43,570 nt of DNA. Source: Tautonia marina. GTDB lineage: Bacteria; Planctomycetota; Planctomycetia; Isosphaerales; Isosphaeraceae. The notes under the pieces were generated by a model, which had not been told where the DNA came from, searched no databases, and saw only the letters and a program-made list of their open reading frames with translations. Where the stretch lies: contig NZ_WEZF01000033.1 of NCBI RefSeq assembly GCF_009177065.1, forward strand, positions 1 to 43,570, given 5' to 3'. The stretch's first letter is position 1. Every line of letters begins with the position of its first letter. Shown one piece after another: positions 851-39,709 of this stretch. Position numbers and translations under genes: made by a program.

Positions 851-3800
851 TCAGTTCAGGTCAAGCTTGTCGGCCAGGAAGGCCCGGAAGCGGCCCCTGC
901 TGGTCTGGCCGAGGCGTTCCAGTTCGGCGTCGAGGGCGGCGAGGCTTTCGACGCTGCGGAAGGAGGTCGGAACCCAGGCCGGGAGCGGGGATCGAGTGGA
1001 AGGCGCGATCGTCCGGGCCGCGGCCTGCACCTCGACGGCCGAGCCGATCGGTTCGGTCGGCAGCTTGAGCAGGTTGATGACGTAGTTCCGGAACGCGACC
1101 CGGTCGCTATGGCCGCGATCGGCCAGCCACTGGTCAAGCTCCGCGACGCTGCCGACCGAGAGCAGTTCGTGGGGGAACCACGAAGGAACGTGCGGCCTCG
1201 GTTGGTGGGGGACGCCGTTGGGGGGCATCGGGGTGGGTCTGGGCGTGTGAATGGGAGTGGGAAGGACGAGGATCTCGCGGCCGAAGTCAGAGACGTAGTT
1301 GCCGCTGGGCAGGGTGTCGTAGTTGCCGTCGAGCAAGACACCGTCGCTCGCCAGGCCGTCTTCCGGCATGCCGTTGATCGTAAGCTGATAGCGGAACGCG
1401 TGGATCGGCAGACGAATGGCCGGGTAGAGCTGGACCGAGAGGCCATCGGCGCTGATCACGGCGTCGACGATGTCGATCTCGCGCCCGACGGCATGTGGGC
1501 CGGACGAGACGATCAGGCTGTAGTTGGCGACATTGGTCGCGGGTCCGACGTCCATCGGGTCGGAGAAGGTGACGACCAGAACGGTCGGTTGGTGGTGGAC
1601 GCCAAGCCGGTCGAGGTCGGTGACGACCGGGGGCCTGACGACCTCGGTGGTCACGGTCACGGTGTTGTTCGCGGGGTCGGTGTCGGTCTCATTGACCACA
1701 ACGACGGCAGTGTTGGTGATCGTCGCCCGAGTCCCGCCGTTGGTGGAGGTGGGAGTGACGACGATAGTCACGGTGGCCGAGGCGCCCGCGGCCAGATTGC
1801 CAAGGTTCGCCGTGACGATCCCGGCCGCTTCGCTCGCCGTCCCCTGGCTCGGCGTGGCCGAGACGAAGGCGACGTTCGCCGGTAAGGTGTCGGTCACGAC
1901 CACGCCGGTCGCGCCGCTCGGGCCATTGTTAGTGACCGTTAAAGTGTACGTCAGGTTCTGACCCACGACGACGGGATCGGGGGTGTCAGCCTTGGCAATC
2001 GCCAGATCGACGGCGGCCAGGACGTCGGTCCTTGCGGTGGCGGTGTTGTTGGTGTCGTCGGTGTCCTCTTCATTGGCGCCGACGTCGGCGGTGTTGGTGA
2101 TCGTCGTGCCACCAGCGGCGGCGGTGGGAGTCACAACGATGGTGAGCGTCGCCGAGGCGCCCGCGGCCAGATTGCCAAGGTTTGCCGTGACGATCCCGGC
2201 CGCTTCGCTCGCCGTCCCCTGGCTCGGCGTGGCCGAGACGAAGGCAACGTTCGCAGGCAGAGTGTCGGTCACGATCACGCCCGTCGCGTCGTTCGGGCCG
2301 TTGTTGGTCACCGTCAGGGTATACGTCAGGTTCTGACCAACCAGGACCGGATCAGGGGTGTCGGCCTTGGCAATTGCCAGGTCGATGGCGGCCAGGACGT
2401 CGGTCCTTGCGGTGGCGGTGTTGTTGGTGTCGTCGGTGTCCTCTTCATTGGCGCCGACGTCGGCGGTGTTGGTGATCGTCGTGCCAGCGGCGGCGGCGGT
2501 GGGGGTGACGACGATGGTGATGGTCGCCGAGGCGCCCGCAGCGAGGTTGCCGAGGTTCGCTGTGACGATCCCGGCGGCCTCGCTCGCCGTCCCCTGGCTC
2601 GGCGTGGCCGAGACGAAGGTGGCGTTCGCCGGCAGGGTGTCGGTCACGATCACGCCCGTCGCGTCGTTCGGGCCGTTATTGGTCACCGTCAGGGTGTAGG
2701 TCAGGTTCTGGCCGACGAGAACAGGATCGGGCACGTCGGTCTTGGTGATCGCCAGGTCGACGCCGACGATTTCGGAAAGAATCGCCTCGGAGAACTCCGA
2801 TGTCTCGATCCGAGGAGCCGCCGCGGTCACGAGCGAGGCGGTTGCGGTGACGGCCAGGCCGGCAGCAATGGGCGTGGCGAACACGGAATTGATCGGCGCG
2901 TTGCCTGCGGCATCGGTGGTGACGGTGGTTTCGAACAAGAAGGTCTGCCCTTCACCGAATCCACTCGGGTCGGCAACCGGGCTGGAGAAGAACTGCACGA
3001 CGAACGTCTGGTTTGGCAGGCTGTTGAGCGTGCCAATGATGGTCAGATTGGTGGCCGTGCTCACGGCCGAGGTCAGCACGGGGAAGTTCTGGAAGTTGTT
3101 CGGCCCAAGGTCGGGATCGAGCGGGTCGTTCAGCGTGACACCGTCGTCGCCGAGGTCGATGCCCAGGCCGCCGTTGTCGTCGATCGCATTGGTCATGATC
3201 ATGGTGCCGCGGGGTGCGCCCCCACCGTTCGGCAATCCGGTGACAGCCACGCCGTCCCCTGCATTGAAGCGGATGGTGTTGCCGACACCGGCGATCGCCG
3301 GAGCACCGCCGATTGAGTTGTCGTTGGCATCGAAGGAGACCTCGACACCGTGAAGGGCGTTCCCGAGCGGCACGGCCCCCGAGACATCGGTGCCGATCAG
3401 GTTGCTTCGTACCTCGTTGCTGTTGGCGGCCCTGCCGTCGAGGGCAACACCCCGGATCAGGATGCCGTCGTTCCCGTTGCCGGAAATCAGGTTCGGAGCA
3501 CCGGGGAAGACGGCGCCGCCGGTGGTGCCGATCCGATTGAACGAGGTGTTCTCGATAAACACGCCGTTACTGCCGTTGCCCAGCGGCCCGGTACCGGCGG
3601 CGTTGGTGCCGATGTAGTTGTTCGCGATCCGGTTACCATCGGCCGTGGGTCCATCGAAGGCGAGGATATGGACGCCATTACTCCCATTGCCGGAAATCAG
3701 GTTGCGAGCGTCCGGAGTGCTGCCACCAACGGTGTTCTGATCGGCCGCTTCATTCACGGCGTGGATAAAGACGCCGTTGCCACCGTTGGGCGCGGCGGTC

Positions 3801-4348
3801 GAGCCGTCGAGGGTGGTGCCAATGAAGTTCCCCTCGATCGTGTTGAGGCTGGAGCTGTTGATCTCGATGCCGTCGCCGGAGAAGTTCTGGATCACCAGGC
3901 CGCGGATGGTGCTCTGATCGGAGCCGATCGCCAGTTGGAGACCGTCGCTTCCGACCCCCGCGCCGGTACCGTCGAGGACGATCTGATAGACGGCGTCGTT
4001 GCCATTGGTCAGCGTATTTGCCGAGGCCCCGGCCTGGGTGAAGCCGTCGATCGTCACCACGTCGGTCAGGAGCGGCAGGGCAGCCGCGGGGGCGATGACG
4101 TGCGGACCGGCCCCGGCGATGTTGAAGACGATGTCGTCGGCCCCTGCGGCGTTATTCGCGTCGACGATGGCCTGCCGGAGCGTTCCCGTTCCCGCGCCTG
4201 GGAGCGGATCCACGCCGCCGTTATCACCGATGCTGGTGACGGTGAAGGTGGCCAGGAGCGTCCGTGACTCCATGAGTTCCAGGGTCGGCCGCCGGCCGAG
4301 ACGGAATCGCTTGCGTCCTGATCCGCGGGAGAATCGTGTGGTTGTCAT
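851..4348 (-). CDS. Secreted parallel beta-helix / DUF11-repeat surface protein (planctomycete giant-protein type)
   Basis: A predicted 1165-residue extracellular protein. I chose the ATG at 4348 because it is followed by a basic segment and then LELMESRTLLA (about residues 23-33), which resembles the LEPRxLL motif seen at the N-terminus of many planctomycete exported proteins. The open frame continues upstream to 4507, but that part looks non-coding. Residues ~60-400 contain repeated N-x-IG-T and GNG-V-I patterns typical of a right-handed parallel beta-helix. Three near-identical ~125-residue DUF11-type repeats follow; each begins near 'LAI.K.D.PDPV.VGQNLTY' and contains TDTLPAN. A C-terminal Ig/SbsA-like segment (TFSDPMDVGPATNVANYSL) comes next, then a short tail. 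I see no PEP-CTERM anchor. It is transcribed away from the glycan operon. A structural or adhesive surface role is inferred; the ligand is unknown. Confidence 0.85.
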   Translation of the reverse strand: MTTTRFSRGSGRKRFRLGRRPTLELMESRTLLATFTVTSIGDNGGVDPLPGAGTGTLRQAIVDANNAAGADDIVFNIAGAGPHVIAPAAALPLLTDVVTIDGFTQAGASANTLTNGNDAVYQIVLDGTGAGVGSDGLQLAIGSDQSTIRGLVIQNFSGDGIEINSSSLNTIEGNFIGTTLDGSTAAPNGGNGVFIHAVNEAADQNTVGGSTPDARNLISGNGSNGVHILAFDGPTADGNRIANNYIGTNAAGTGPLGNGSNGVFIENTSFNRIGTTGGAVFPGAPNLISGNGNDGILIRGVALDGRAANSNEVRSNLIGTDVSGAVPLGNALHGVEVSFDANDNSIGGAPAIAGVGNTIRFNAGDGVAVTGLPNGGGAPRGTMIMTNAIDDNGGLGIDLGDDGVTLNDPLDPDLGPNNFQNFPVLTSAVSTATNLTIIGTLNSLPNQTFVVQFFSSPVADPSGFGEGQTFLFETTVTTDAAGNAPINSVFATPIAAGLAVTATASLVTAAAPRIETSEFSEAILSEIVGVDLAITKTDVPDPVLVGQNLTYTLTVTNNGPNDATGVIVTDTLPANATFVSATPSQGTASEAAGIVTANLGNLAAGASATITIVVTPTAAAAGTTITNTADVGANEEDTDDTNNTATARTDVLAAIDLAIAKADTPDPVLVGQNLTYTLTVTNNGPNDATGVIVTDTLPANVAFVSATPSQGTASEAAGIVTANLGNLAAGASATLTIVVTPTAAAGGTTITNTADVGANEEDTDDTNNTATARTDVLAAVDLAIAKADTPDPVVVGQNLTYTLTVTNNGPSGATGVVVTDTLPANVAFVSATPSQGTASEAAGIVTANLGNLAAGASATVTIVVTPTSTNGGTRATITNTAVVVVNETDTDPANNTVTVTTEVVRPPVVTDLDRLGVHHQPTVLVVTFSDPMDVGPATNVANYSLIVSSGPHAVGREIDIVDAVISADGLSVQLYPAIRLPIHAFRYQLTINGMPEDGLASDGVLLDGNYDTLPSGNYVSDFGREILVLPTPIHTPRPTPMPPNGVPHQPRPHVPSWFPHELLSVGSVAELDQWLADRGHSDRVAFRNYVINLLKLPTEPIGSAVEVQAAARTIAPSTRSPLPAWVPTSFRSVESLAALDAELERLGQTSRGRFRAFLADKLDLN
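1607..2731 (-). repeat. Three tandem 375-bp DUF11-coding units
   Basis: The coding sequence repeats with a 375-bp period (125 codons): the segment at 1982-2006 recurs at 2357 and, more diverged, near 2731. The two units 1982-2356 and 2357-2731 are nearly identical at DNA level across long stretches. The third (1607-1981) is more diverged at its C-terminal end. Near-identity at synonymous sites points to recent duplication or gene conversion. Confidence 0.85.
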
Positions 4349-5217
4349 CACGGAACGATGCCTCAATCTAGGATTCCACGGATCGCCAGATCGACATGCG
4401 GAAAACATGCATCCTTTCGAGCAAAACGACATCCTCACGTTCGATTCGGCCGGTCCGGCTTTCCGTGTCAAAACCTCGAATTCAGGGAAGATCAGATGAG
4501 GGTTCAATCTCCGGCGGAACCGGCAACGGCATTACCCACCGGTGGTGGTCGGCAAGGCTGATGATCATCTCGGCGCGGACGACGAGCGCAGGCCGGACGA
4601 GCCCATCCTCCCCGTCACGATTCCTTGCGTGATGTGACCGCCGCGATCAGGCGGATCAGTCAAAATGCCTGGAGATCACACAACGGCGCACACACCTTCG
4701 GGACGGTTCGGACCGCTTGCACGGCCCTTTTGATCAGCGTTGTTGAACCTCGCACTCGGGCTCGTTGGGAAAAGCCCGCCCTTGTTCTCGGACCTCGATG
4801 ACGCTCTGTCAGCCGATCACATTCATAAAAAAAGCCCTGACGATGCGATCATGTGCGATGCATCGACAGGGCCACCGTGGCCATGGCACCATCCTTCTCG
4901 AATGGACCGTCTTCATTGTGGCGCGGCCCGACCGAGACCGCAAGATGCTTATTCGGCTTATTCGACAGAATTTCGCCCGGCACCGCAAACATCCTGAACG
5001 ACGAATTTTCTCGGCGTGGTGATTTGATGAGAGCGAGGAGACGAGGTTGGCCGGGAATGGCCCAGAGAGGCTGGCCAGGTGGGTTGGGGGCCGGTCCCCG
5101 CGTCGGGACCGATTGGTTATGATATGCAGCCCCTGGGTGATCGGCCCGAGCGCGGTCTCGGATGCGGTGGGTCCTGGGCCTTGAGTCAGGGATTCGGCCC
5201 TCGGAGGAATTGATCGG
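4349..5217. other. Intergenic region between the secreted-protein gene and galE
   Basis: The two genes diverge across this 0.87-kb stretch. Small open frames occur, but none has a recognisable domain or a supporting ribosome-binding site. It holds the minus-facing hairpin listed separately (4827-4872). GGAGG at about 5201-5205 is the ribosome-binding site of galE. I cannot assign promoters with confidence. Confidence 0.5.
4827..4872 (-). terminator. Rho-independent terminator facing the minus strand
   Basis: GCCCTGACGATGC (4834-4846) pairs with GCATCGACAGGGC (4860-4872) with one mismatch and a 13-nt loop. On the minus strand the stem is followed by seven T residues (4827-4833). This is a textbook intrinsic terminator, yet no minus-strand gene lies directly upstream of it; galE runs the other way. 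It may end a small RNA or antisense transcript, or insulate the upstream gene. Confidence 0.65.
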
Positions 5218-6216
5218 ATGAAGCTCTTGTTGACCGGAGGCGCCGGTTATATCGGCAGCGCCTGCTTGCGGTGGCTCTTGAAGCACGGGCACGACCCGAT
5301 CGCCTTCGATGACCTGTCGGAAGGGAACCCGCCGAGCGTGCCGAGCGATCGCCTGGTGGTGGGAGACATTCTCGATACGAACGCCCTGACCGAAGCCCTG
5401 AAGAAACACCGGGCCGAGGCGGTGATGCACTTCGCGGCGCTGGCGATTGTGCCCGATTCGGTGAAGGACCCGGATAATTACTACCGGGTCAACGTGATCG
5501 GGACCAAGAGCGTGCTCGATGCGATGCGGCGGGCCGAGGTGCCCCGGATCGTCTTCAGCAGCACCTGCGCAACGTACGGCAATCGGGCGGAGATGCCGTT
5601 GACCGAAACCACGCCGCAGGATCCGGAGCATCCGTACGGGACAACCAAGCTGGCGGCGGAGCGCTTGATCAAGGATTACGCGGCGGCGTATGGCCTCGGT
5701 TATGCGATCTTGCGGTACTTCAATGCCGCAGGAGCCGATCCGGACGGAACGTACGGGGAAGATCGGCGTCACGAGACGCACCTGATTCCGTTGACCCTTC
5801 AGGCGGCGGCCGGTTTACGTCCGAAGCTGACCGTCTTCGGCACCGACTGGCCGACACGAGACGGCACCTGCGTTCGGGACTATATTCACACCGAGGACCT
5901 GGCCGACGCGCATCAGAAGGCCGTCGAGGCGATTGGGCCGGGCGACGGTCGGATTTACAACGTCGGCTCCGGCCACGGGGCGACGGTGTTGGAGGTGATT
6001 CGGGCCTGCGAGGAGGTGGTCGGGCGGCCGATTCCTCGGGATCTGGCCGGGAGACGGCCGGGAGACCCTCCGGAGCTGGTCGCCAGCCCCGAGAAAATCG
6101 CCTCGGAATTAGGCTGGAGCCCCCGTTATACTGACATCCGAGCGATCGTTGAGACCGCCTGGCGATGGCTCGAATCCCACCCCGACGGCTACGGCCCGAA
6201 GCCGTCCCGGCACTAA
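5218..6216 (+). CDS. galE: UDP-glucose 4-epimerase
   Basis: A 332-residue extended short-chain dehydrogenase/reductase. It carries the N-terminal NAD-binding GGAGYIGS (residues 7-14), the catalytic S-S-T pattern in FSSTCATYG (about 118-126), and YGTTK (about 139-143), which supplies the catalytic Tyr and Lys. It also has RYFNAAGA, DGTCVRDYIHTEDLA and YNVGSGHGATVLEV. The length matches the GalE family. It interconverts UDP-glucose and UDP-galactose (or the N-acetyl forms) in the cytoplasm. The ATG at 5218 follows GGAGG with good spacing. It is the first gene of a plus-strand operon of sugar-handling genes, so its likely job is supplying UDP-galactose or UDP-GalNAc for the exopolysaccharide. 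The exact sugar specificity cannot be read from sequence. Confidence 0.93.
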   Translation: MKLLLTGGAGYIGSACLRWLLKHGHDPIAFDDLSEGNPPSVPSDRLVVGDILDTNALTEALKKHRAEAVMHFAALAIVPDSVKDPDNYYRVNVIGTKSVLDAMRRAEVPRIVFSSTCATYGNRAEMPLTETTPQDPEHPYGTTKLAAERLIKDYAAAYGLGYAILRYFNAAGADPDGTYGEDRRHETHLIPLTLQAAAGLRPKLTVFGTDWPTRDGTCVRDYIHTEDLADAHQKAVEAIGPGDGRIYNVGSGHGATVLEVIRACEEVVGRPIPRDLAGRRPGDPPELVASPEKIASELGWSPRYTDIRAIVETAWRWLESHPDGYGPKPSRH

Positions 6217-6244
6217 GCCTCTCGCCTCGAAGGATTTCGCATCC

Positions 6245-7327
6245 GTGACCGCCCCCCTGCCCCGACCGGAGCCCTCGACCTCCCAGGACCTCGACGCGAT
6301 CGGCGCGGTGGCGATCGGCCGCAACGAGGGGGATCGGCTGATCGCCTGCCTCGATTCGCTGATCGGCCGGGTGGGCCGGATCGTGTATGTCGATTCGGGA
6401 TCTCAGGATGGGAGCGTCGCCGAGGCAAGGGCCAGGGGGGTCGAGGTCGTCGAGCTGGACACGAGGATTCCGTTCACGGCCGCGAGGGCGAGGAACGCGG
6501 GGCTTGAGCGGTTGCTGGAGCTGGAACCGGGGTTACGGTTCGTCCAGTTCGTCGACGGCGATTGCGAAGTGGTCGACGGCTGGATTGATCGGGCCCGTTC
6601 GGAACTGGAGTCAAGGTCCGAGCTGGCGGTGGCGTGCGGGAGGCGTCGGGAGCGGTATCCAGAGGCATCCGTTTACAATCGCCTGGCCGATCTGGAGTGG
6701 GATACGCCGGTCGGCGATGCCGAGGCGTGCGGCGGCGATGCCTTGATGCGGGTCGAGGCGTTGCGGCAGGTCGGCGGGTTTGACCCGACCTTGATTGCCG
6801 GGGAGGAGCCGGACCTCTGCTTCCGGCTTCGGGATCAAGGGTGGAAGGTCGCCCGAATCGACGCCGAGATGACCCGGCACGACCTGGCGATGGCCCGGTT
6901 TGGCCAGTGGTGGCGTCGTCATGTCCGGGCGGGGCACGCCTATGCCGAGGGGGCCTGCCGTCATTTTCAGAAGCCCGGCCGCCCGTGGTTTCGCCAGGCA
7001 ATGAGCAACGGCGTCTGGGGCCTGGCCGTGCCGATCGCCAGCCTCGGGCTGGCCTGGCCGACCGGAGGGTTGAGCCTGCTCGGTCTGCTCGGCTACCCCT
7101 TGATCGCCTTCCGGGCCACTCGAAGGCAGCGGAAGCGGGGAACGCCGGGGGGGCAATCGGCGATCTTCGGTGTTTCGTGCGCCGTCTCGAAATTCCCGCA
7201 GGCGATTGGAGAGCTTCGGTTCGTGGCCAATCGCTTACGAGGACGTCGGGGGGCTCTGATCGAATATAAAGGCCCCGAGTCGCCTGCCAATCTTCAGGCC
7301 GTCCGTGCGGTGAAGGGTCGGCGATGA
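6245..7327 (+). CDS. Family 2 glycosyltransferase
   Basis: A predicted 360-residue GT-A enzyme. The GTG at 6245 is preferred because AAGGA precedes it at good spacing and it clears the galE stop; an upstream in-frame ATG lies inside galE. Visible motifs are VAIGRNEGDRL, VYVDSGSQDGS (nucleotide-binding Asp), VDGDCEV (DxD-like metal site), and GGDALMRVEALRQVGGFD followed by GEEPDLCFRLRDQGW, the usual acceptor/catalytic region. A hydrophobic segment near the C-terminus suggests membrane attachment at the cytoplasmic face. It sits 28 bp after galE and before two more glycosyltransferases. Donor and acceptor are not predictable; transfer to a lipid-linked glycan is inferred. Confidence 0.88.
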   Translation: MTAPLPRPEPSTSQDLDAIGAVAIGRNEGDRLIACLDSLIGRVGRIVYVDSGSQDGSVAEARARGVEVVELDTRIPFTAARARNAGLERLLELEPGLRFVQFVDGDCEVVDGWIDRARSELESRSELAVACGRRRERYPEASVYNRLADLEWDTPVGDAEACGGDALMRVEALRQVGGFDPTLIAGEEPDLCFRLRDQGWKVARIDAEMTRHDLAMARFGQWWRRHVRAGHAYAEGACRHFQKPGRPWFRQAMSNGVWGLAVPIASLGLAWPTGGLSLLGLLGYPLIAFRATRRQRKRGTPGGQSAIFGVSCAVSKFPQAIGELRFVANRLRGRRGALIEYKGPESPANLQAVRAVKGRR

Positions 7328-7412
7328 GGACTCCCAAAAGGGCCTTGCCAGGCGGTTCGGGTGCTGCTTCTGGCTTCTTCGAGGACACGAGGCGCGCTGC
7401 ACCGAGGATCGC

Positions 7413-8687
7413 ATGAACGAGTTTTCCAATTCGTCTCGAAGGCTTGTGTTCGTTCATGGTCCCTGGCAGTTGCTGGTGGCGACCGCGGCGGTTCGCCAGG
7501 CGTCCGCGTCAGCATCCCGATCCGGTGGCCCGACCGAATCGATTCTGGTGATCTTTCCGCTGGATACGGGGCCAAGCACTCCGGAACTGCGGGAGGTCAT
7601 CGAGCGTCTGGCGGGAGCTACCTGGACATGGGACCGGGTGGTGACGGTCGATCAGCCGTTGCGTGATCTGTCTGCCGAGGGGGTGGCCGAGGCCATTGCC
7701 TCGCTCCGGTCGCGGGTGGGTGCTTCCAGAGCGGATGAGATCTGGCTCGATTGTCTCTGGGGAGGAATTGAGAAGGTTGCGGCCGAAGCCTTTCCGAACG
7801 CTCGAATCATGCTCTATGAGGACGGCCTGCACACGTTTGTCGAACACGAGGACCATCATCTTTCAATTGGAAGATTTCTGAACGAGCCGAAACGTACCTA
7901 CCGCGCGATCCGAGCGAGACTCGCGCAGCGACGGTTCCCGGATCGCCTGAAACGGTGGTCGTTGCTGCGCAGGCATCTGGATCGGGTTGGGGGGAGCTAT
8001 CTCTGGACGGATCAGGTCATTCCCGTACCGGCATATCAGCGGCACTTGCCTCGAGTCCGGCTTCAGGCCAACGTGCTTCGGGAAACCATTCGGGACGGGT
8101 CGAGGGTTGCTCCCCTTCCATCGGTTGCGTCGGAGATGGATCGGAGCGCGGAGCCCCGGGCCCTCGTGCTTGGCCAATGCTTTTCGAATTACGGCGATCT
8201 CCCTCGGGACGAGGAGCTTTCCTGTTATCGAGAGACGGTGATTACGTTGCGCAAGGCGGGCTTCTCCGTGCTCTGGAAAGAGCATCCTCGAACTCGAGAG
8301 CCGTTTCTGAAGGCACTGGCAAGCGAGGTTGAGGGAATCGTGGCGATGCCGGAGCTTGGTCCCTGGCCGGTCGAGCTGTTTGCCGAACGGTTGCGGCTTT
8401 CGTGTTGCGCGGCGGTGTCGTCGACCTCCCTCTTTTCGTTCCCGCTGCTGTTCGGTTTGCCGTCCTATACAATGATGACCGATGCGATTCAGGCGTTGTT
8501 CCGATACCCGAACGATCAGATGGCGCGGTTTGTGGTGGCTTCTGTTCCTCCGGTGACGCGCGCCGTGAGCCTGTCGAAAGAGACGCAGACGGTGACCACC
8601 CTCGGCTCCCCGTCAGGGCTTGCGATTCCCGATCCGGACCACCGAGACGCCATCGACGGGCAGCCGGGGGCACGTCTTGGCGTCTGA
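7413..8687 (+). CDS. Putative sialyltransferase-like GT-B glycosyltransferase (GT52 / polysialyltransferase type)
   Basis: A 424-residue protein. The opening LVFVHGPWQLLVATAAVRQ resembles the start of GT52 and bacterial polysialyltransferase-like proteins. Three motifs of bacterial GT-B sialyltransferases appear in order: the D/E-D/E-G motif in YEDGLHTF, the HP motif in LWKEHPRTREPF, and a Ser/Thr motif in AAVSSTSLFSFPLLFG near the C-terminus. This motif set, not overall similarity, supports the call. It would transfer a sugar, possibly a nonulosonic acid, onto the glycan. No CMP-nonulosonate synthesis genes are visible here, so the donor is unproven. The ATG at 7413 has GAGG about 5 nt upstream, and a terminal TGA ends the gene 39 bp before the next. 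Confidence 0.6.
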   Translation: MNEFSNSSRRLVFVHGPWQLLVATAAVRQASASASRSGGPTESILVIFPLDTGPSTPELREVIERLAGATWTWDRVVTVDQPLRDLSAEGVAEAIASLRSRVGASRADEIWLDCLWGGIEKVAAEAFPNARIMLYEDGLHTFVEHEDHHLSIGRFLNEPKRTYRAIRARLAQRRFPDRLKRWSLLRRHLDRVGGSYLWTDQVIPVPAYQRHLPRVRLQANVLRETIRDGSRVAPLPSVASEMDRSAEPRALVLGQCFSNYGDLPRDEELSCYRETVITLRKAGFSVLWKEHPRTREPFLKALASEVEGIVAMPELGPWPVELFAERLRLSCCAAVSSTSLFSFPLLFGLPSYTMMTDAIQALFRYPNDQMARFVVASVPPVTRAVSLSKETQTVTTLGSPSGLAIPDPDHRDAIDGQPGARLGV

Positions 8688-8726
8688 TCGGATCACGAAC
8701 CAGAAGCTACCCAGGAGATTGCTGGA

Positions 8727-10064
8727 TTGCACCCTTCGAGGCCGTTAAGTCCCTCCCTTGATCCCTCAGCCGCACCGGCGGAGGACGGTGGTCCGCCACT
8801 GTCGATTGGCCTGTACTGTCCCGGATGGCCGCCGGAGGGGTTCGCCAATGGGATCATTACCTACGTTGAGGCGATCGCCGAGGGAATGACCCGGCTGGGC
8901 CATCGGCCGTACATTCTGGCCGGCTCGGTGGCCGAGCCGATCTCGGAGGCTCCCCCCGCTCCGGTGCTGGATTTGCGGCCGCTGTATGCACCGGGATTGC
9001 CTGGGAAGGTGGCCGAGGCGCTGGCCTATCGTCTCGATCCGAAGGCGCCGGCGACGCGCATCATGCGGATCGCTCGAGGATTACGGCGGGTGATCCAAGG
9101 AGCGGAAGGATACCCCCGGCTGGACATCCTGGAAGTGGAGGAGACCTTGGGCCTTCCCGGAACCCTGGGACGCCGGAGACGGGTACCGGTGGTGGCTCGG
9201 CTGCACGGCCCCTGGTTCCTGAACGGTCCGAACCAAGGGGGTGATCCGTTGTCTCGGGAGTTCGCTCGCCGGGTGCGGATCGAGGGGAAGGTGTTGCGAG
9301 TCGTCGAGGGGATCACCGGCCCTTCGCAAGACGTGATTGACCGAACACGTGCGTATTACAATGAACCGTTACCCGAGGCCGAGGCGATTCCGAATCCGGT
9401 TCGCCTGGTGCCGGCCGATCGTCAATGGCGGGTCGAGACCAGCGAACCGGATCATATCGTCTTCATTGGTCGCTTTGATCGTCATAAGGGCGGAGACACG
9501 ATTCTCGACGCCTTCGCCGTGCTGCTGCGCGATCGTCCCTCGGCGCGGCTGACGTTCGTGGGTCCGGATCGGGGGCTGGACCGCGACGGTCGGCACTGGA
9601 CGTTGCCGGAGTACCTGGAGCATCGGCTCCCGGGGGCCCTGGCCGAGGGTCGCGTTCAATGGCTCGGCCGTCGCCCTCCCTCGGACGTGGCGGAACTTCG
9701 GCGGCGAGCCGCGGTGACGGTGGTCGCTTCTCGCTATGAAACGTTTGCCATCACCATTACCGAGGCGATGGCCGCCGGGTGCCCCCTGGTGGCCACCCGA
9801 GCCGGTGGAGCAAGCGAGTTGTTCGAGGACGGCTTGCACGGCCGTTACGTGGACCCGGAAGACCCGGAGGGGATGGCCTCGGCCCTCGCCTGGATGCTGG
9901 CCGATCCCGCGCGATCGGCCAAGCTGGGTGCCGCCGCGGCGGAGTACTGTCGCCGGAATTACACTCCGGAAATTGTCGCCGAGCAAACCATTCGCTTTTA
10001 TCGCCGAGTGCTGGCCAAGCGCGCGACGCCAGGCATCCTTGAATCGAAGGAGTCCCGTCCGTGA
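8727..10064 (+). CDS. Family 4 (GT-B) glycosyltransferase
   Basis: A 445-residue GT4-type enzyme. The TTG at 8727 is chosen because AGGAG lies about 10 nt upstream and the protein homology begins soon after (LSIGLYCPGWPPEGFANGIITYVEAIAEGM). The C-terminal donor-binding half contains IVFIGRFDRHKGGDTILDAF, RLTFVGPDRG, and ETFAITITEAMAAGCPLVAT, which holds the E-x7-E signature. It probably acts in the cytoplasm on a lipid-linked acceptor using a nucleotide sugar. Its stop overlaps the next start in a GTGA, indicating translational coupling with the polymerase gene. Confidence 0.9.
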   Translation: MHPSRPLSPSLDPSAAPAEDGGPPLSIGLYCPGWPPEGFANGIITYVEAIAEGMTRLGHRPYILAGSVAEPISEAPPAPVLDLRPLYAPGLPGKVAEALAYRLDPKAPATRIMRIARGLRRVIQGAEGYPRLDILEVEETLGLPGTLGRRRRVPVVARLHGPWFLNGPNQGGDPLSREFARRVRIEGKVLRVVEGITGPSQDVIDRTRAYYNEPLPEAEAIPNPVRLVPADRQWRVETSEPDHIVFIGRFDRHKGGDTILDAFAVLLRDRPSARLTFVGPDRGLDRDGRHWTLPEYLEHRLPGALAEGRVQWLGRRPPSDVAELRRRAAVTVVASRYETFAITITEAMAAGCPLVATRAGGASELFEDGLHGRYVDPEDPEGMASALAWMLADPARSAKLGAAAAEYCRRNYTPEIVAEQTIRFYRRVLAKRATPGILESKESRP

Positions 10065-12331
10065 GTCAGACCGCCGTGGTCGCCCTGCTGGCCTGGCCTG
10101 TCCTCTGTTTGCTCTTTTTTGCGGTCCTCGGACCGTGGAAAGGAGTGATCACGTCTTATATCGGATCGTACTTACTCCTGTCGGGCAAGGTCATCGTGCC
10201 GATGTCGGGCCTCCCCGACTACACGAAGTTCACAGCGGCCAACCTGGGCGTTTTGATCGGCATCCTGATCTTCGATAGCCGTCGGTTTGGGACCTTCCGG
10301 CCGCGATGGTACGACGCGGCGGCGCTGATTGTGTGTTGCACCCCGATCGCGTCGTTCCTGCTCAATGGGCTGGGGGCATGGCCATTGATTTCGGCGGTCA
10401 ACTCCGTGATTCAATCCTGGGGTCTTCCCTACTTCGTTGGCAGGCTTTACTTCGGGAAACCGGGAGCCGACCGAGAGCTGGCGATCGGGATGACCGTGGC
10501 CGGTGTGCTGATGACGCCGGCCATTCTGTACGAGGTCTTCGGCCAGACATCGATCAGTGAGCTTGTTTACGGACTTCGACAGTACAATGGTTTCAAGTAT
10601 GGATTTTATCGACCGATTGTAATGGCGACCAATGCGCTGGAACTGGCGCTCTGGTCAACCCTGACGGGGATCGTGTCGTTTAGCCTGTGGGTGACCCGTG
10701 CCGTTCCGAAACTGGCTGGTGTGCCCTTCGGCCTCTGGACAGCGACGGCCATTGCCGGGGCAGTGATTTGCCTGGAAACGGCGGCGCTGGGCTTTCTGAT
10801 CATGGGGATCTTCTTGATCGCCATCACGGCGGGACGATCGCGGTTTGGTCCGTTGCCCGAGTTGCTGGCCTCGGGAGCGGTACTCCTTGTCATTCCGAAG
10901 GCGGGGTTCAGGGTCGCGTTGATGGGTCTGACCGGGATCGGCCTTGTCCGTTACCTTTCGCTTCATCGGGCTCGCCTGCTGATCACGATGGCGAGCTTGA
11001 TCGCTCCGGTTTATCTATTTTTACGGATTACCAAGCTGGTGACCCGAGAGGCGTTGACATCGACCATCTATGCAATCCTCGGACGCGAACGGGGTTGGTC
11101 GTACACGTTTCGGATCATCATGGAAGATCGGATGCTTCGCCATGTGATGCAACGGCCGCTTTTTGGATGGGCGACCTATGCCGAGGGACGGGCTCGGGCG
11201 CCGGATGTCCGGATCCTCGACAGCATGTGGATTGTGTTTATGGGGATCTATGGGATTGTCGGAATCACGGCACTTTATGCGATGCTCTGCCTTCCCGTGG
11301 TGTTGACGAGCCGTCGACGGCCGGTCGAGACCTGGTCGGAGCCGCGTCAGGGGGCCGCCATCGGCCTGGCGATCGCGATTTTGATCTACACCTACGACAG
11401 TATGCTTAATGCCTATACGATGATTCCGGTTCCGTTGATCGTGGGGCTCGTCATGGGCCTTCCCGCCGTGATGGGGCAGGCTCGAAGCTGGGTTGCACAG
11501 GGACGAAGTGACCGAGAGCTTGAGCAAGTCGAGCAGCTGGCGGCGATGGGGAGAGTCGATGAGGCCGAGGCATTGTGCCATCGCGTGATCTCGGTTCGGT
11601 TGGCCGATCGATCGGGGCATGAAGCGCTGGCTGATGCCTACGATCGGCTGGCGGATTTGCGGGAGACACTCGATCGGTTCGAGGAGGCGGAGCCGGCCCG
11701 GCGCCAGGCGCTGGAACTGCGGATCGCCGTGGCGGCCTCGTCGCCGAACGATCCGGCGGCAAGGGCAATCCTGGCGGGGTGTTGCGAGCGGCTCTCGCGG
11801 AATCTGGTGACCCGGAATCGAGGGACCGAGGCGGTCGAGCTTCGGGAACTGGCCCTGGAGCAACGAGCGGCCGTGGCGGCCGTGTTCCCAGAGGATCCGA
11901 GGGCCTTGATTGCCTATGCCGACGACCTGAACGACCTGGCCTGGTTGCTGGCCGTTGGCGGCGACTCAACCATGAGCGACCCGACCCGGGCGGTGGCGAT
12001 GGCCGAGCAGGCCGTTCGGATTCGCCCGGATTGCAAGTCGTACTGGAACACGCTGGGGGCGGCCTATGTGCGGGTGGGCGATCCCAGCGCGGCGCTGTCG
12101 GCGCTGCGTCATTCCTTACGAATCGGTCCCGACGAGACGGGCTTTGACGAGGTTCTTCGGGCGCTGGCAATGGCCTCGCTGGGGGATATCGAGGGGGCCC
12201 GAGAGGCGCTTGGCCGGGTTGATCAGTTGCTGCAAGGGAATCAGGAAGCCTCCGCCTCGCTGATTCGACTGCGCGCCGAGGCCGCGAACCTGCTGGGCTC
12301 CTCGGTCCCGGCCGTGGTTCAATCACGGTAA
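10061..12331 (+). CDS. O-antigen polymerase/ligase-like membrane protein with C-terminal TPR domain
   Basis: A 756-residue fusion. Residues ~1-470 are polytopic, with roughly ten or more hydrophobic spans, and have the O-antigen ligase/Wzy layout, including a long loop (LTSTIYAILGRERGWSYTFRI, a few residues over this excerpt) and a late span followed by GIYGIVG. Residues ~480-756 are soluble, alpha-helical and contain TPR-like repeats such as SYWNTLGAAYVRVGDPSAALSALRHSL. The GTG at 10061 overlaps the previous stop by 4 nt and has GAAGGAG upstream. It likely polymerises or ligates lipid-linked repeat units at the periplasmic face, with TPRs contacting other assembly proteins. Whether it is a polymerase or a ligase cannot be decided from sequence. 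Confidence 0.82.
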   Translation: MSQTAVVALLAWPVLCLLFFAVLGPWKGVITSYIGSYLLLSGKVIVPMSGLPDYTKFTAANLGVLIGILIFDSRRFGTFRPRWYDAAALIVCCTPIASFLLNGLGAWPLISAVNSVIQSWGLPYFVGRLYFGKPGADRELAIGMTVAGVLMTPAILYEVFGQTSISELVYGLRQYNGFKYGFYRPIVMATNALELALWSTLTGIVSFSLWVTRAVPKLAGVPFGLWTATAIAGAVICLETAALGFLIMGIFLIAITAGRSRFGPLPELLASGAVLLVIPKAGFRVALMGLTGIGLVRYLSLHRARLLITMASLIAPVYLFLRITKLVTREALTSTIYAILGRERGWSYTFRIIMEDRMLRHVMQRPLFGWATYAEGRARAPDVRILDSMWIVFMGIYGIVGITALYAMLCLPVVLTSRRRPVETWSEPRQGAAIGLAIAILIYTYDSMLNAYTMIPVPLIVGLVMGLPAVMGQARSWVAQGRSDRELEQVEQLAAMGRVDEAEALCHRVISVRLADRSGHEALADAYDRLADLRETLDRFEEAEPARRQALELRIAVAASSPNDPAARAILAGCCERLSRNLVTRNRGTEAVELRELALEQRAAVAAVFPEDPRALIAYADDLNDLAWLLAVGGDSTMSDPTRAVAMAEQAVRIRPDCKSYWNTLGAAYVRVGDPSAALSALRHSLRIGPDETGFDEVLRALAMASLGDIEGAREALGRVDQLLQGNQEASASLIRLRAEAANLLGSSVPAVVQSR

Positions 12332-12584
12332 CCAGGCATGATCGGACTCGAACCGATCCAGGGGTGTTTTCGAGGTTCGATTCTCCTTCCAGGAGTGCCG
12401 ATGAGCCGGGAACGCTCCGGAGGGGTTTCGCCATGGGGTTCTTTGACAAAAAAAGGTGCTTAAAGCGGCTCATTTTTCTGATAGTAACATCAGGGGGGGC
12501 ATTGTCTCGGGGCCGGCCGCAGGTTGCGTCGAGCCCGGCGAAATGATCCCGCCGAGGAGCCACAGTGCCCGGTTTTGCTCGACG
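12332..12584. other. Intergenic region before the large LamG protein gene
   Basis: About 250 bp without a defensible gene. It contains an AT-rich patch with TTGACA (12443-12448) and an A7 tract, but no matching -10 at normal spacing. A short stretch near 12341-12360 resembles the T-arm of a minus-strand tRNA, but no tRNA surrounds it. The upstream operon may end here, as the composition changes sharply. Confidence 0.4.
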
Positions 12585-15500
12585 ATGAACGATCGGCCGC
12601 CAGAGCCGGGCGGGCCTGCTGCGACTCCCCCCCTTGACGATTCCCGTCTCCGGCAATGCCGTTCGATCGTGCCTTTGGGCAGGACCGTCGCGGTTGTCGG
12701 GGCGTTGCTGGGGCTGCTTGTTGGTTACGCAACCGTGATCTGCTGGGATCACGGTCACGAGCCACCGATCAGGACCTTGGCAACACTCGTTCAGAATGGA
12801 AACCTGCCTTCCGACGTTGGACGGCCGGCGGCCGGCCCCGGAGCCATCTCATCGGGGCCAATCATGTCTTTTACCGATCCGGACACCCTGCCCGAGCCCT
12901 TGCTCTGGCTTCGTGCCGACCGCGGTGTTTTCGGACACGGCGCCGCGCACTGGAATGGGACCTCTCACACTCAGCTTGTTGGTCCTGGGCAAGCCGATCT
13001 GCAAACCGGCAATGTCGATTTTGCGTTTGCGTGCTGGGTTCGAGTCAACGCGATCCCTTCGGAGGTCGGGTTGTCGAACCCGAATACTCACATTGCCAGC
13101 AAGTGGGGAACGGGCTCGGAATGGTTGCTGTGCCTGAACTCTCCGACCGGAGCAGACCAGTTCTGTTTCACGGCCCGAGGAGCCGGGAGCGTTAATGCCC
13201 CTCGATCGGCGTTTCCCGGCGGAATTGAAGTCGGGCGCTGGTACTTCGTGGTCGGTTGGCACGATGCCACCACCGATCCCTCGGCCCGGACGCTCAATTT
13301 GAGCGTTGACGGCGTGACCGTTGGTTCGACGTCTTACAGCAGTTCGCCGATCAATAGCTGGACGGCATTCACGTTGGGAGCCACCGCCAAAACGGTTGGC
13401 TATCCTCCGATCAGTCTCTGCCGCGCCGCGTTCTTCAAGAACTCACTGGGAGGGATCGGGGCGAACATCGACGCGATGATTGCGTCGATGTACAACGCGG
13501 GGGCAGGAGCCGATCTTGATCAGTTAAATCCGGAAGATCTTCGCAATTGGGGCATGGTGGCTTACTGGCCGCTGGACGAACTCAGAGGGACTCGTCAAAA
13601 CATCTACAGGTCGCATCCTGACCATAGGCTGCTGGACTCGACAGGAATTGAGAGCGTTGGGGGGCCGTTAGCTGGTCGGGCAGCGCACGACAGCCTGGTG
13701 ACCGGCTGGACGGATCAGATCAACGGGCGAATCTTTTCGTCGGCCGGATGCCCGTGGCGAGGAGACTCGGCCCGTTTGTTCTCGAATGCTCGGGATCGTC
13801 AATTCGAGCACGGCGAGGTCCTCCTCTCGGGTCGATCGGAGTGGACGGCGACCCTGACGGGAGCAACACGATCGGGGCTCGGGTTTGGGCTTTATAGTGA
13901 GTCGGATGGGGCCGGAGAGGAGGAGTACCTGGAGCTTCGCGTCGATCATGACGGTGTTCCGGAGTTGGCCGTCAAACCGGTCGGAGCTGCCGAAATGGTC
14001 GTCCGAGCCTCGGACGCCATTACCGGCCGACGCTCGATCACTCTCGCGGAAACCGAATCCGTTCCTCTGGAAAGCGACAACGTGCCTCGCCTGCGATGCA
14101 AGGTGACGGTGGGCTCCGAGCATCCGTTTGCCACAACGGATGTCATCCGGGTTTCGGGTTTGGGACCGCCCTTTGATGGTGAACACTGGGTCACTCATGC
14201 CACCGAGGAGCAAGTCTACTACATCGTCGATAACCCGGCGACCCCACCGGACACGGCTGGGTCTCGACGGTTTTCCGGGGGATCGCCGGCCACAAATCCC
14301 GCTCCGGAAGGTGTCGTGTCCGCAACGTTGGACCACCGATTCCGGGAGGATTGGTCGGGGTCGGAATGGACGATTGCGGGCTGGGTGCGCAAGACCAGCG
14401 AGAGTGTTGATGGTCAGATCGGTGGTAGCGGCCTCTTCGCCGCGAAGGACTGTTCCGACCTTCGAGCGCTGAGCACGCGACCCCAGATTCTTCATGCGGG
14501 GGACGGTTCTCCGGGTTCGTATCAGCTGGATCTTCCGGGAGGTCCGTCGGCGACGTTCGGGGCAGCCCCGCTGGAGAGCTGGGTTCATCTCGCCGCCGTT
14601 CGATCAGGGAATGTGATCACGCTGTATTATGATGGAATTTCGTCGGGAACGCTCGATGTTTCAACCGATCCGGAGCTTGGTTCGACCTTCTCAGGCCTGA
14701 GTTTTGGTGGCAACGCCGAGCTGAGCGCGGGGTTGCCCTGCTTGCTGGACAACTGGGGCGTCTGGCTGGGTCGGGCGTTATCATCGGCCGAGGTCCAGAC
14801 GCTTCACGGAAGCGGCACGGGGTTGTCCTTTGCAGGGCTTCCGGAACCGCTGAGGTCGGACGTCACAGCCTGGTACGACTTCGACGAGGTTTCCGGCACG
14901 GCTTTGGATGCTTCGGGGCACTTTGCCTTGACGGAACGAGGCGTGGTGGCATCGGGGGAAGGGGTTGGCGGAGGCATTCCGTTCAGCTCGGCACACTCGG
15001 ATGGTCACGTCTTTGGGACCGGATGCACGCAGATCGCCGATGAGTTTTCCACGGATGCCGGGAAAGCGCTGGAGTATCGACGCTGGGTGCTGACGGTCCG
15101 TCGATCCGGATCGGAGATCTCCTTTTTTCGCAACGCCGCGCTGATCGGTTCGGGAAGCCTTCCGCCCGAAGTCCTGGGCCCCTCGTCAGGGGTGTCCCGG
15201 GTACTTGGGACCTCGAACCGGCTCGGTGCGCCTCATGGTGCCATCGAGCATGTGCATTTGACCGGCAGCGTGCTGGACGGACCGGCCATTTTTGGATTGG
15301 CGGCTCAGTTCTCGGTGCGGCCAAGCCAGACCAATGGGATGGGTCCATTAGGGGTTCAGTTTGATGCCACCTTGTTTCCGCTCGTCGATCGCATGGCGGC
15401 CCAGGATTATGATTATCTCTGGCGATTTGTAAGGTCAGGCACTCAGGAACTTCATGATCCGTATCTCTCTCCGGTCAGTGGCCAGGCTTACGCCCGATCG

Positions 15501-17621
15501 ACCGGCTTTTATGTCTCTCAGGTCTTTGAAAATGAAGGAACGTATGACGCCCATCTGGTCGTGCTGACCCCGCGCTACAACCGGAAAGGGGAAGCGCAAC
15601 CGCAGACATGCCTGTTTGCCGGAAAGGTGGCCACCATTCAGGTCGACCCCTGGCCGGAAACTGGGACAACGTATTACGTCTCGTCGACGCATCCGAATCG
15701 AAGCGACGAGGGCCCGGGAACATCTCCGGAGGAGCCTCTGGAGAGCATTACCGAGGCGTTCAAACGGTTCAATTGTGCGTACACGCGAGTGCTACTGAAA
15801 CGCGGAGACGTGTTTCCGTTTCGTGATACGCTCGATCTGAATTATCGGCGAGGCCCGTTACTGCTCGGTGCTTACGGGGATCCGGCCGCGGAAAAACCGA
15901 TCATCCTTGCTCCGCCGTATCCCGAAGGAAATCTTGGCCACATCGGCTTTGAAGGAACCTTTGACCTGCGGATTTCGGGAATCGCATCTCGTGAGCTCAC
16001 GACCCGGTCGAAACCGGTGTTCAGGATCTGGACCAGGAACCGAAATCTCCTCTTTCATGATCTTGATATTCGCGAAGCGGGCATGTGTTTTCAATTTGGG
16101 AGTGGTGATCGTGGTCTGATGATTGATCGGTCTTATCTTGGATCGGCGTCGGATTACACAATTTACACCACAGGAGGATTTGAGTTCAGCATGACTCGTT
16201 GCGCGCTGGAGGCATCTCCGGGGCAACACTTTGTTCGACTGAATCAATCCCAACGGTCACATGTGGCACACTGCTACCGTCATGAGAGCCCCTTCCCTTC
16301 GACGAAAACGTGGTTCACTCCGCGACACCAGACCCGTTATTTCGTGGTGACCGACTCGGCCGGTGATAATCTGCAAACGGTCATCAGCACAACCGAGCAG
16401 CATTACACGGGCCCCCAGTGGGGGCTCATCGAACGCAATCACCTGCGCTTCATCGACCTGCACAGTAGTAGTTCGACCACGGCTCGCGGCAACGTGATGG
16501 TGGTCGATCTTGCTCAACCGAACCAGATCAACAAGCACATCTACTGGCGTGATGAGGGGGCAGCGCGCAGCAAACGCGCCGAGGATGGCCGAGGGTACGG
16601 CAATCAACTGCTTCCGACCATGGTCGTGCGCCACTGGCTCTCGGATCGAACCCTCCTTGTGAATGAGTCAAACTATAATTACGCTCCGGAATCCGTACTC
16701 GTCCCCCCGACGATTGTTCCGGTTGCGGAGGTTCCGGGAGGGGCGATTTTGGCGGCCTCGGGCTTTGGCGAGGGAGGACCGGAGCCCTGGTCACTTCGCT
16801 GGATGCGGCGGCCGGCGGGAGGAGACGCTCCGTTCGAGCCGCTGGTTGGTCACAAGAGCGCGAGCATCGTCGATCTCAGCCCAGCGCCCGGGGCCTACGA
16901 GTACCGGATCGATCTGGTCACGGAATCGGGTCTTGAGGCCGTTGGATCGGACGTGGTGACGATTGAGATTCCGGGCACGCAATCCGATTATCGGATTGAG
17001 GTTCCAAGCCCGGCGGAATGTTTCGCGGACGAGTCTTCAACATCCTTCCGTGTCGTGCTCCAGGGCGATCCTCCGACCAGCCCGGTCACGATCACTCCTA
17101 GCAGCAACGGACCAGGACATTTTGATCCCACGTCTGTCGTCCTTTCCGCCGAAACTCCGTCGGCTCAGTTCCGGTTTTCCCCGGATCCGGCCCCAGGAGG
17201 AGTCGGAACATGGCTGATTTCGACAAGCAATGATGCCGGTCTGGTTAACCCAGCAGCCGAAACGTTCACGGTTTTGGAGCGTGTTACAGACCCACCGACT
17301 AACCCCACGGATCCGCCGACTGATCCGACTGATCCGACTGATCCAACTGATCCGCCAGCAGATCCCCCGAAGCAACCCCGGCCGAAACCGGTTCGCCTCA
17401 GACTGATCCCCGACGTGACTCCTCCGGTCGGGAACAATGGTCGGGGCCTGGCGGGCTTTCCTCAGAGGAGAGGTCATTCCGAAGGAACGCCACCTCCTGA
17501 GAGCCTTCCCGGTCACCTACCAGTTGCGCCACCAGTTCCCAACGGCGAGGCCTTTCGGCCGAACCGGGAACCTTCCGCATCCACCGGGCGACCTCTGGTT
17601 CCCTGGTTCCGCAAACGTTGA
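12585..17621 (+). CDS. Giant membrane-anchored or secreted LamG/PKD/parallel beta-helix protein
   Basis: 1678 residues from the ATG at 12585. The open frame extends back to 12456 and no start has a clear ribosome-binding site, so the N-terminus is uncertain; 12585 was chosen because a single hydrophobic span (LGRTVAVVGALLGLLVGYA) follows soon after. Domains, approximate: LamG/concanavalin-like jellyroll at 138-285, second LamG at 589-742, PKD-like at 905-1020, parallel beta-helix at 1025-1362 opening with GTTYYVSSTHPNRSDEGPGT, an Ig-like pair, then a Pro/Asp/Thr linker (PTDPTDPTDP) and a basic tail. This layout suits a cell-surface or extracellular carbohydrate-binding protein. Its place after the polymerase gene suggests binding or modifying the exopolysaccharide. 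No catalytic residues could be assigned. Confidence 0.75.
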   Translation: MNDRPPEPGGPAATPPLDDSRLRQCRSIVPLGRTVAVVGALLGLLVGYATVICWDHGHEPPIRTLATLVQNGNLPSDVGRPAAGPGAISSGPIMSFTDPDTLPEPLLWLRADRGVFGHGAAHWNGTSHTQLVGPGQADLQTGNVDFAFACWVRVNAIPSEVGLSNPNTHIASKWGTGSEWLLCLNSPTGADQFCFTARGAGSVNAPRSAFPGGIEVGRWYFVVGWHDATTDPSARTLNLSVDGVTVGSTSYSSSPINSWTAFTLGATAKTVGYPPISLCRAAFFKNSLGGIGANIDAMIASMYNAGAGADLDQLNPEDLRNWGMVAYWPLDELRGTRQNIYRSHPDHRLLDSTGIESVGGPLAGRAAHDSLVTGWTDQINGRIFSSAGCPWRGDSARLFSNARDRQFEHGEVLLSGRSEWTATLTGATRSGLGFGLYSESDGAGEEEYLELRVDHDGVPELAVKPVGAAEMVVRASDAITGRRSITLAETESVPLESDNVPRLRCKVTVGSEHPFATTDVIRVSGLGPPFDGEHWVTHATEEQVYYIVDNPATPPDTAGSRRFSGGSPATNPAPEGVVSATLDHRFREDWSGSEWTIAGWVRKTSESVDGQIGGSGLFAAKDCSDLRALSTRPQILHAGDGSPGSYQLDLPGGPSATFGAAPLESWVHLAAVRSGNVITLYYDGISSGTLDVSTDPELGSTFSGLSFGGNAELSAGLPCLLDNWGVWLGRALSSAEVQTLHGSGTGLSFAGLPEPLRSDVTAWYDFDEVSGTALDASGHFALTERGVVASGEGVGGGIPFSSAHSDGHVFGTGCTQIADEFSTDAGKALEYRRWVLTVRRSGSEISFFRNAALIGSGSLPPEVLGPSSGVSRVLGTSNRLGAPHGAIEHVHLTGSVLDGPAIFGLAAQFSVRPSQTNGMGPLGVQFDATLFPLVDRMAAQDYDYLWRFVRSGTQELHDPYLSPVSGQAYARSTGFYVSQVFENEGTYDAHLVVLTPRYNRKGEAQPQTCLFAGKVATIQVDPWPETGTTYYVSSTHPNRSDEGPGTSPEEPLESITEAFKRFNCAYTRVLLKRGDVFPFRDTLDLNYRRGPLLLGAYGDPAAEKPIILAPPYPEGNLGHIGFEGTFDLRISGIASRELTTRSKPVFRIWTRNRNLLFHDLDIREAGMCFQFGSGDRGLMIDRSYLGSASDYTIYTTGGFEFSMTRCALEASPGQHFVRLNQSQRSHVAHCYRHESPFPSTKTWFTPRHQTRYFVVTDSAGDNLQTVISTTEQHYTGPQWGLIERNHLRFIDLHSSSSTTARGNVMVVDLAQPNQINKHIYWRDEGAARSKRAEDGRGYGNQLLPTMVVRHWLSDRTLLVNESNYNYAPESVLVPPTIVPVAEVPGGAILAASGFGEGGPEPWSLRWMRRPAGGDAPFEPLVGHKSASIVDLSPAPGAYEYRIDLVTESGLEAVGSDVVTIEIPGTQSDYRIEVPSPAECFADESSTSFRVVLQGDPPTSPVTITPSSNGPGHFDPTSVVLSAETPSAQFRFSPDPAPGGVGTWLISTSNDAGLVNPAAETFTVLERVTDPPTNPTDPPTDPTDPTDPTDPPADPPKQPRPKPVRLRLIPDVTPPVGNNGRGLAGFPQRRGHSEGTPPPESLPGHLPVAPPVPNGEAFRPNREPSASTGRPLVPWFRKR
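17318..17353 (+). repeat. 9-bp tandem repeat encoding a T-D-P linker
   Basis: Four tandem copies of GACTGATCC (the last is AACTGATCC) lie in frame inside the large LamG protein gene and encode a (TDP)n linker. Such a run is prone to slippage, so linker length may vary between strains. Confidence 0.8.
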
Positions 17622-20874: not shown

Positions 20875-20991
20875 AAGGGCGGGCAATTGCTGGAGGTTTT
20901 GCCATTGTTGTTGCATGATTTCTCCACGGGGACGGAGAGAGACCGTTCCGGACTTCGGCTCCCGGAACGCCCCTGGAACAGGACCGCCACC

Positions 20992-25424: not shown

Positions 25425-25582
25425 CGACCGTTCCTCCCCGATCGGTAGTCCCCTGCCCGTCTTCTCGATCGGCAGACCTCGCCGGCCGGAAACGTTTGGG
25501 GTTCGGCCGTAAATAACGACTAGAGATCGTGTTACGGCGTGAGATTGGCTTATGGTTTGCTTGAGTACCAGGTTTCCTGAAA

Positions 25583-28671: not shown

Positions 28672-28761
28672 GGCATTTCAACAGACGTGAAGACTCGGCG
28701 GATTCGCGCTCTGCTCGGTTCGTCTTGCATGGCCCGCAGTGGCCTTGGGAGGAGATGTTTC

Positions 28762-29541: not shown

Positions 29542-29585
29542 CCGAAAGCCGATCCAGACACCTTATGCGTGACCCCGGGACGAAC

Positions 29586-29864
29586 CTACGAACCATGCGA
29601 TCGACTTCTGACCACACCATGCAGGTGCGGCACAGAGAGCATCCGCGCCGTCCCATCTCGACGCAACCCGCCCCGTTGCGATATCAACTCGTGTTCGAGC
29701 CGTTTCGCAACCGCACAGCAGAGCATTCCCAGGCCACCAATCACCAGCACGACAACCGCAACCGGTGCCAGATAGATGGCAAGAAGCGTCAAGATCACCC
29801 GGCGCAGCGGATCCCTGCCGCGTTGGACGTCCTCTTCGTTGCCTCGCATCTCACCCGTGGTCAT
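29586..29864 (-). CDS. Small single-span membrane protein of unknown function
   Basis: 92 residues. The ATG at 29864 has GAGGAG about 9 nt upstream, which is the main support for translation. A charged N-terminus (MTTGEMRGNEEDVQRGRDPL) precedes one long hydrophobic segment (ILTLLAIYLAPVAVVVLVIG), and an Arg-rich tail follows. I recognise no family. It lies convergent to epsI and upstream of the PEP-CTERM gene, so a role in the exosortase system is possible but unsupported. It could be a chance frame. Confidence 0.5.
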   Translation of the reverse strand: MTTGEMRGNEEDVQRGRDPLRRVILTLLAIYLAPVAVVVLVIGGLGMLCCAVAKRLEHELISQRGGLRRDGTARMLSVPHLHGVVRSRSHGS

Positions 29865-30951: not shown

Positions 30952-30994
30952 TCTGAGTTTGACTTGAGCTGAGCAACCCTCAGTGCAACAACTC

Positions 30995-35887: not shown

Positions 35888-35964
35888 GTGCAAGAACCGG
35901 GGTGGAGGATTGAAAAGGGCTCGACGCACAACGCACACAAACGATCGGTTGGAAATCAATCCAA

Positions 35965-39673: not shown

Positions 39674-39709
39674 GTCAGTGAACTGGCCAGACTTCAGCCC
39701 GAGAAGCCC

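Follow-up and report, generated by a model that had tools for sequence, protein, structure and literature searches.

The window, meaning the whole stretch of 43,570 nucleotides that was analysed, is one entire contig (C33) of the Tautonia marina genome. The gene under study lies in a glycan locus between two glycosyltransferase genes, and the contig also carries replication and partition genes and a second glycan cluster:

851 to 4507, minus strand: 1218-aa ORF with DUF11 and CARDB domains
5218 to 6216, plus strand: GalE, UDP-glucose 4-epimerase (TIGR01179, 399.6 bits, above cut-off; 86-97% identity in three same-genus genomes)
6149 to 7327, plus strand: GT2-type glycosyltransferase (PF00535; 71-91% identity in the three relatives; true start probably further in)
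7273 to 8775: segment lacking DNA similarity to the syntenic region in the three same-genus genomes (DNA comparison)
7413 to 8687, plus strand: PF07388 protein P0001, proposed CMP-nonulosonate transferase (424 aa, open frame, ATG start)
8727 to 10064, plus strand: GT4-type glycosyltransferase (PF00534)
10061 to 12331, plus strand: TPR protein, syntenic in the three relatives
12456 to 17621, plus strand: 1721-aa protein with a LamG/ConA-like domain (PF13385), present in the G040 and G041 stretches
20887 to 22530, plus strand: replication initiator RepA (PF10134)
24534 to 25592, minus strand: ParA-type partition ATPase
27943 to 43561: second glycan cluster (EPS/exosortase) with sugar transferase, tyrosine autokinase, exosortase, WecG/TagA-type glycosyltransferase and amidotransferase

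Over 89-91% of its length, RepA shares 58-61% identity with the RepAs of four planctomycete plasmids, and C33 is likely a plasmid. Two plus-strand ORFs (2742-3353 and 3350-4267) were rejected as genes, being antisense to the domain-bearing 1218-aa ORF.

P0001 had been described in the initial annotation as a sialyltransferase-like enzyme of a planctomycete glycan locus, with EDG, HP and Ser/Thr motifs in the right order and an N-terminus resembling GT52. The Pfam profiles support the first part of this description: P0001 matched PF07388 (alpha-2,8-polysialyltransferase, GT38 type) with 78.2 bits (E 1e-21, cut-off 23.3), which is beyond chance, and the alignment, from residues 11-355 to profile positions 2-315 of 316, was nearly full length. 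E. coli UTI89 NeuS, used as positive control, reached 152.4 bits with the same model. The resemblance to GT52 was not supported, as PF07388 was the sole Pfam family for P0001 at E <= 1. The GT52 and GT80 sialyltransferases share the D/E-D/E-G and HP motifs with P0001 (PMC2169525), but neither of these types was matched by P0001 in Pfam at that threshold. P0001 differs from NeuS in that pairwise BLAST found no similarity between the two, and an NCBIfam search gave one match at chance level. By its sequence, P0001 is thus a remote member of PF07388, and it is the single match to this family in the whole T. marina genome.

To assign residue roles, P0001 was aligned to E. coli K1 NeuS, and NeuS was then aligned to the M. 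haemolytica polysialyltransferase MhPST (5wcn; E 1.6e-38). The roles of the D/E-D/E-G and HP motifs, the CMP site and the acceptor contacts in MhPST were taken from PMC5517516, and those of the HP motif also from PMC2169525. The following sites were located:

7818 to 7826, plus strand: E136-D137-G138, D/E-D/E-G motif, aligned to NeuS and via NeuS to MhPST E152-E153-G
8277 to 8291, plus strand: K289-E290-H291-P292-R293, HP motif, predicted CMP binding and acceptor contact
8370 to 8375, plus strand: V320-E321, predicted CMP ribose contact (MhPST A322-E323)
8418 to 8426, plus strand: S336-S337-T338, predicted phosphate contact (S337-T338 corresponding to MhPST S339-T340)

The motif order first noticed by eye was confirmed in this way, and the alignment places in P0001 the CMP-binding Lys, Glu and Ser/Thr residues together with both motifs. 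K289 and H291 have the same residue numbers in MhPST, and R293 aligns with MhPST K293. If P0001 works as MhPST does, D137, its predicted catalytic base, would act on the acceptor hydroxyl, and the CMP moiety would be bound by K289, H291, E321 and S337-T338. Among the six aligned members, the first motif is EDG in P0001 and G124, SDG in Nonomuraea, EEG in NeuS and G425, and GDG in G165; all but G425, which has RP, retain the HP pair.

The fold was predicted with AlphaFold from three sequences and the resulting model was poor (mean pLDDT 45.3, pTM 0.42; block means 50-84 over residues 1-130). With this pLDDT-45 model, Foldseek returned epimerases at ranks 1-2 and MhPST 5wcn and 5wc6 at ranks 3 and 4 (TM 0.30-0.34). 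VIA placed MhPST 5wc6 and 5wcn at ranks 1-2 with the same model (Z 10.0 and 9.9; rmsd 7.0 and 7.2; 193 residues), followed by NeuC at Z 9.0, with 4r83, a GT80-type sialyltransferase, at Z 7.5. The structure comparison proposed at the outset was thus run on a poor model, with the GT38 enzyme on top in VIA and epimerases first in Foldseek. The model agrees weakly with a GT-B fold. The match does not discriminate between sialyl- and Kdo-transferases, because the Kdo transferase KrkA is reported to be equally similar to MhPST, with a DALI Z of 10.2 to 5wcn (PMC12887879).

The initial annotation had remarked that CMP-sugar synthesis genes are absent from the window, and indeed Pfam profiles for the NeuB family (PF03102) and cytidylyltransferases (PF02348) gave no match on C33. 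The genome search for neuA/neuB-like genes that it had proposed located them on another contig, C19. The NeuB encoded there is short (294 aa) and scores 275 bits in PF03102 and 266 bits against TIGR03569 (cut-off 400). A fusion protein encoded upstream of it combines a cytidylyltransferase domain resembling PseF (133 bits, cut-off 206) with a phosphatase domain resembling KdsC. Among solved structures, this protein comes nearest to a HAD hydrolase and to NeuA enzymes; the cytidylyltransferase domain is closest to PseF and NeuA proteins. The genome accordingly holds the NeuB-type and CMP-nonulosonate synthetase-type genes that a nonulosonate-using system would need, with both the NeuB and PseF matches under the NCBIfam equivalog cut-offs. 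This core is conserved in two genomes of the same genus (G041: NeuB 98%, NeuA 90%; G042: NeuB 92%, NeuA 77%). As a phosphatase is fused to the cytidylyltransferase, the genes suggest a 9-phosphate route such as that of Kdn or Neu5Ac-9-P. The shortness of NeuB was not accepted as proof of Kdn, since a 66% homologue in Methylomagnum sits among other genes. The C19 cluster also contains Wzm/Wzt-like genes, a pyruvyltransferase, a KEHP-type glycosyltransferase (PF05159, 25.9 bits) and, judged by eye, a sulfotransferase-like gene.

The main rival donor is CMP-Kdo, which would also be available because KdsB is encoded on contig C29, above its family cut-offs. P0001 would then transfer Kdo onto the glycan of the locus. 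The HP motif is common to beta-Kdo transferases (PMC5517516) and the fold match to MhPST is shared by KrkA, but the sequence family of P0001 is PF07388 and no Kdo-transferase family, and its homologues in G124, G425 and Nonomuraea adjoin NeuB/NeuA-like genes. We regard transfer of Kdo as unlikely.

PF07388 is rare in these bacteria. It was found in 1/45 genomes of the order, in 4/392 genomes of the phylum and 3/397 of the class (overlapping samples), and in 1/9 genomes of the class of G124, while TIGR03569 matches with E <= 3.5e-30 occurred in 8/45 genomes of the order, so that NeuB is the commoner of the two in the order. The neighbourhoods of other planctomycete PF07388 genes were covered for three of the four other genomes with a match, namely G124, G425 and G165 (the fourth being G462), and in two of the three (G124 and G425) the gene was linked to nonulosonate genes. 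The closest homologue found was that of G124 (Ca. Brocadiia MAG CSMAG_2295, JAUWIN010000006.1), which has the same motifs and 33% identity over 397 aligned columns (E 1e-43). Its gene differs in setting from that of P0001: a gap of ten bases separates it from NeuB on its 5' side, a DUF6716 (NeuE-type) gene stands nearby further on (L014:2424-3743, minus strand), and it is not part of a GalE/GT2/GT4 locus. The G124 NeuB, cut by the contig end, is 69% identical to the C19 NeuB. Behind the homologue, a 76-aa fragment (L014:2149-2376, minus strand) shares 68% identity with the beginning of the C19 cytidylyltransferase, the remainder of which had no match there. In G425, the PF07388 gene directly follows a NeuA-like gene, with NeuB in the same run and NeuC recognized by eye. 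The G165 member (L016:9422-10687, minus strand), in which GDG replaces D/E-D/E-G, had no nonulosonate query match around it in 19.9 kb.

A further locus in Nonomuraea gerenzanensis (NZ_LT559118.1, L049) was reached via NeuB and is therefore not an independent draw. Its PF07388 protein scores 89.9 bits and, unlike P0001, has SDG instead of EDG. The gene order is a 730-aa ORF joining NeuA (cytidylyltransferase), phosphatase and NeuB parts (L049:7672-9864, plus strand), a GT2-like ORF (by eye), PF07388 and DUF6716 (443.5 bits; L049:12099-13325, minus strand), and the NeuB and NeuA parts resemble those of C19 (63% and 44%). Streptomyces teichulosonic acid contains Kdn (PMC11481543), and we infer a link between this polymer and the Nonomuraea locus. 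A 314-aa protein at L049:13268-14212 (minus strand) has no Pfam match and shows DDG, PHR and PAE by eye, like a further sialyltransferase-type protein.

Searches for other relatives were largely negative. No relative came out of PDB sequence searches, whether P0001, alignments A1 and A3 or the G425 homologue served as query. Plasmids searched by tblastn with P0001 and the G124 protein contained no homologue, and a scan of viral contigs gave none; the genome-contig scan yielded no match with P0001 and one with alignment A1. PADLOC reported nothing on this DNA.

PF07388 being the family of NeuS, P0001 may instead be a true polymerase of a poly-nonulosonate such as poly-Kdn. R293 stands at the acceptor-binding K293 of MhPST, and the G124 and Nonomuraea relatives carry a NeuE-type DUF6716 gene, as does E. 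coli UTI89, where PF07388 and DUF6716 (L045:4474-5622, minus strand) are side by side. DUF6716 was, however, found in 0/45 genomes of the order, T. marina included, with the E. coli control positive, and the Wzm/Wzt-like genes are on another contig. Unlike in the NeuS and MhPST systems, the P0001 gene lies between GT2 and GT4 genes, away from the nonulosonate genes, a position that suggests a single step in a mixed glycan. We consider a true polymerase unlikely. P0001 might also use a different CMP-sugar, or its gene might be out of use, which would fit its rarity, its lack of linkage to donor genes and a nearest homologue of only 33% identity. Against this, the reading frame is uninterrupted and none of the aligned catalytic residues has been lost, and we consider this highly improbable. 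P0001 is an intact, rare PF07388 enzyme.

Comparison with the three genomes of the same genus (G040, G041 and G042) showed that the synteny of GalE, GT2, GT4 and TPR is kept in all of them; the LamG protein was not found in the G042 stretch. DNA similarity ends at 7203-7272 (in G040, the gap begins at 7204) and resumes at 8776 (G040 and G042) or 9124 (G041). The PF07388 gene is thus wholly inside a non-homologous gap between the conserved GT2 and GT4 genes. The same slot holds GT4 and GT2-like ORFs in G040 (the latter by eye), WbsX and GT4 in G042, and a 276-aa ORF and GT2 in G041. The GT4 protein itself is 29% identical to its G041 counterpart over the first 132 residues (38 of 129) and 67% over the rest (211 of 313); the corresponding values are 53% and 67% for G040 and 52% and 59% for G042. 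The GT2 gene is no marker of the locus, because plasmids of unrelated bacteria also carry sequences that match it at 53-59% (46 records).

The 276-aa protein of G041 (L032:9264-10094, minus strand) is 52% identical to a 282-aa protein of G042 (L040:10232-11080, plus strand), encoded in an ORF overlapping the end of neuB. This overlap, from one gene pair, hints that the slot may serve nonulosonate transfer. The slot of G042 itself has neither PF07388 nor the 276-aa gene, and the same is true of G040, which is the one of these three genomes without a TIGR03569 match. No Pfam match was found for the 276-aa or 282-aa protein, nor a PDB-profile relative for the latter. An assignment of the 276-aa protein to GT42, made by eye against CstII, was rejected, as Pfam, NCBIfam (best E 0.035, unrelated) and PDB gave no relative; PF06002 was found in 0/45 genomes and in no control either, and is hence uninformative. 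The model of this protein was useless (pLDDT 34), and a search of 392 genomes returned one match, weak and partial.

Taken together, we consider it probable that P0001 is an inverting GT-B transferase of PF07388 which transfers a CMP-activated nonulosonic acid to the glycan made by its GalE, GT2 and GT4 neighbours, in a locus that is probably plasmid-borne. The short NeuB and the fused cytidylyltransferase-phosphatase of C19 would supply the activated donor, perhaps Kdn through a 9-phosphate, and the gene would have arrived within a cassette into the variable slot. This reading is supported by the nearly full-length PF07388 match with catalytic residues aligned to NeuS and MhPST, by the top VIA ranks of MhPST as far as a pLDDT-45 model can indicate, by the donor-type genes conserved in two same-genus genomes, by the linkage of the homologues in G124, G425 and Nonomuraea, and by the neuB-overlapping homologue of the G041 slot gene. 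It is weakened by the absence of nonulosonate genes from the window and the C19 cluster having its own KEHP-type glycosyltransferase, by the unlinked G165 gene, by the lacking pairwise similarity to NeuS, by the poor model, by the presence of KdsB, and by NeuB and PseF matches that stay under the equivalog cut-offs.

The initial annotation held that a nonulosonic acid in this phylum would be notable. This view is weakened by Ca. Brocadia sapporoensis, an anammox planctomycete. Sialic acid in its EPS is mentioned in PMC9631793, after Boleij 2020. In our literature search, with most subscription papers outside its reach, nonulosonic acids came up together with Planctomycetes and with Brocadia, and in no paper with Isosphaeraceae; sialic acid, Planctomycetes and NeuB came up together in the context of catabolism. 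If the proposed function is true, a planctomycete glycan locus employs an enzyme of the polysialyltransferase family, best known for its part in E. coli K1 and meningococcal capsules, and the donor pathway behind it is built differently, with a short NeuB and a phosphatase fused to the cytidylyltransferase. The protein would then be a testable enzyme for the role of nonulosonic acids in such bacteria and might lead to new CMP-sugar transferases, with the 276-aa family as a further candidate.

More speculatively, unrelated CMP-nonulosonate transferases (PF07388 here, the undescribed 276-aa family in G041) might replace one another at a single fixed position, along with the acceptor-side part of the GT4 that follows, and be fed by one conserved pathway, perhaps for Kdn. 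Such exchange could give a serotype-like switching of a plasmid-encoded, sialic-acid-like coat across the genus, an idea that we find possible and somewhat doubtful. As a separate observation, a 41% relative of the GT4 of the window lies ~6 kb from a NeuB-like gene in another genome (L033, G014 C66).
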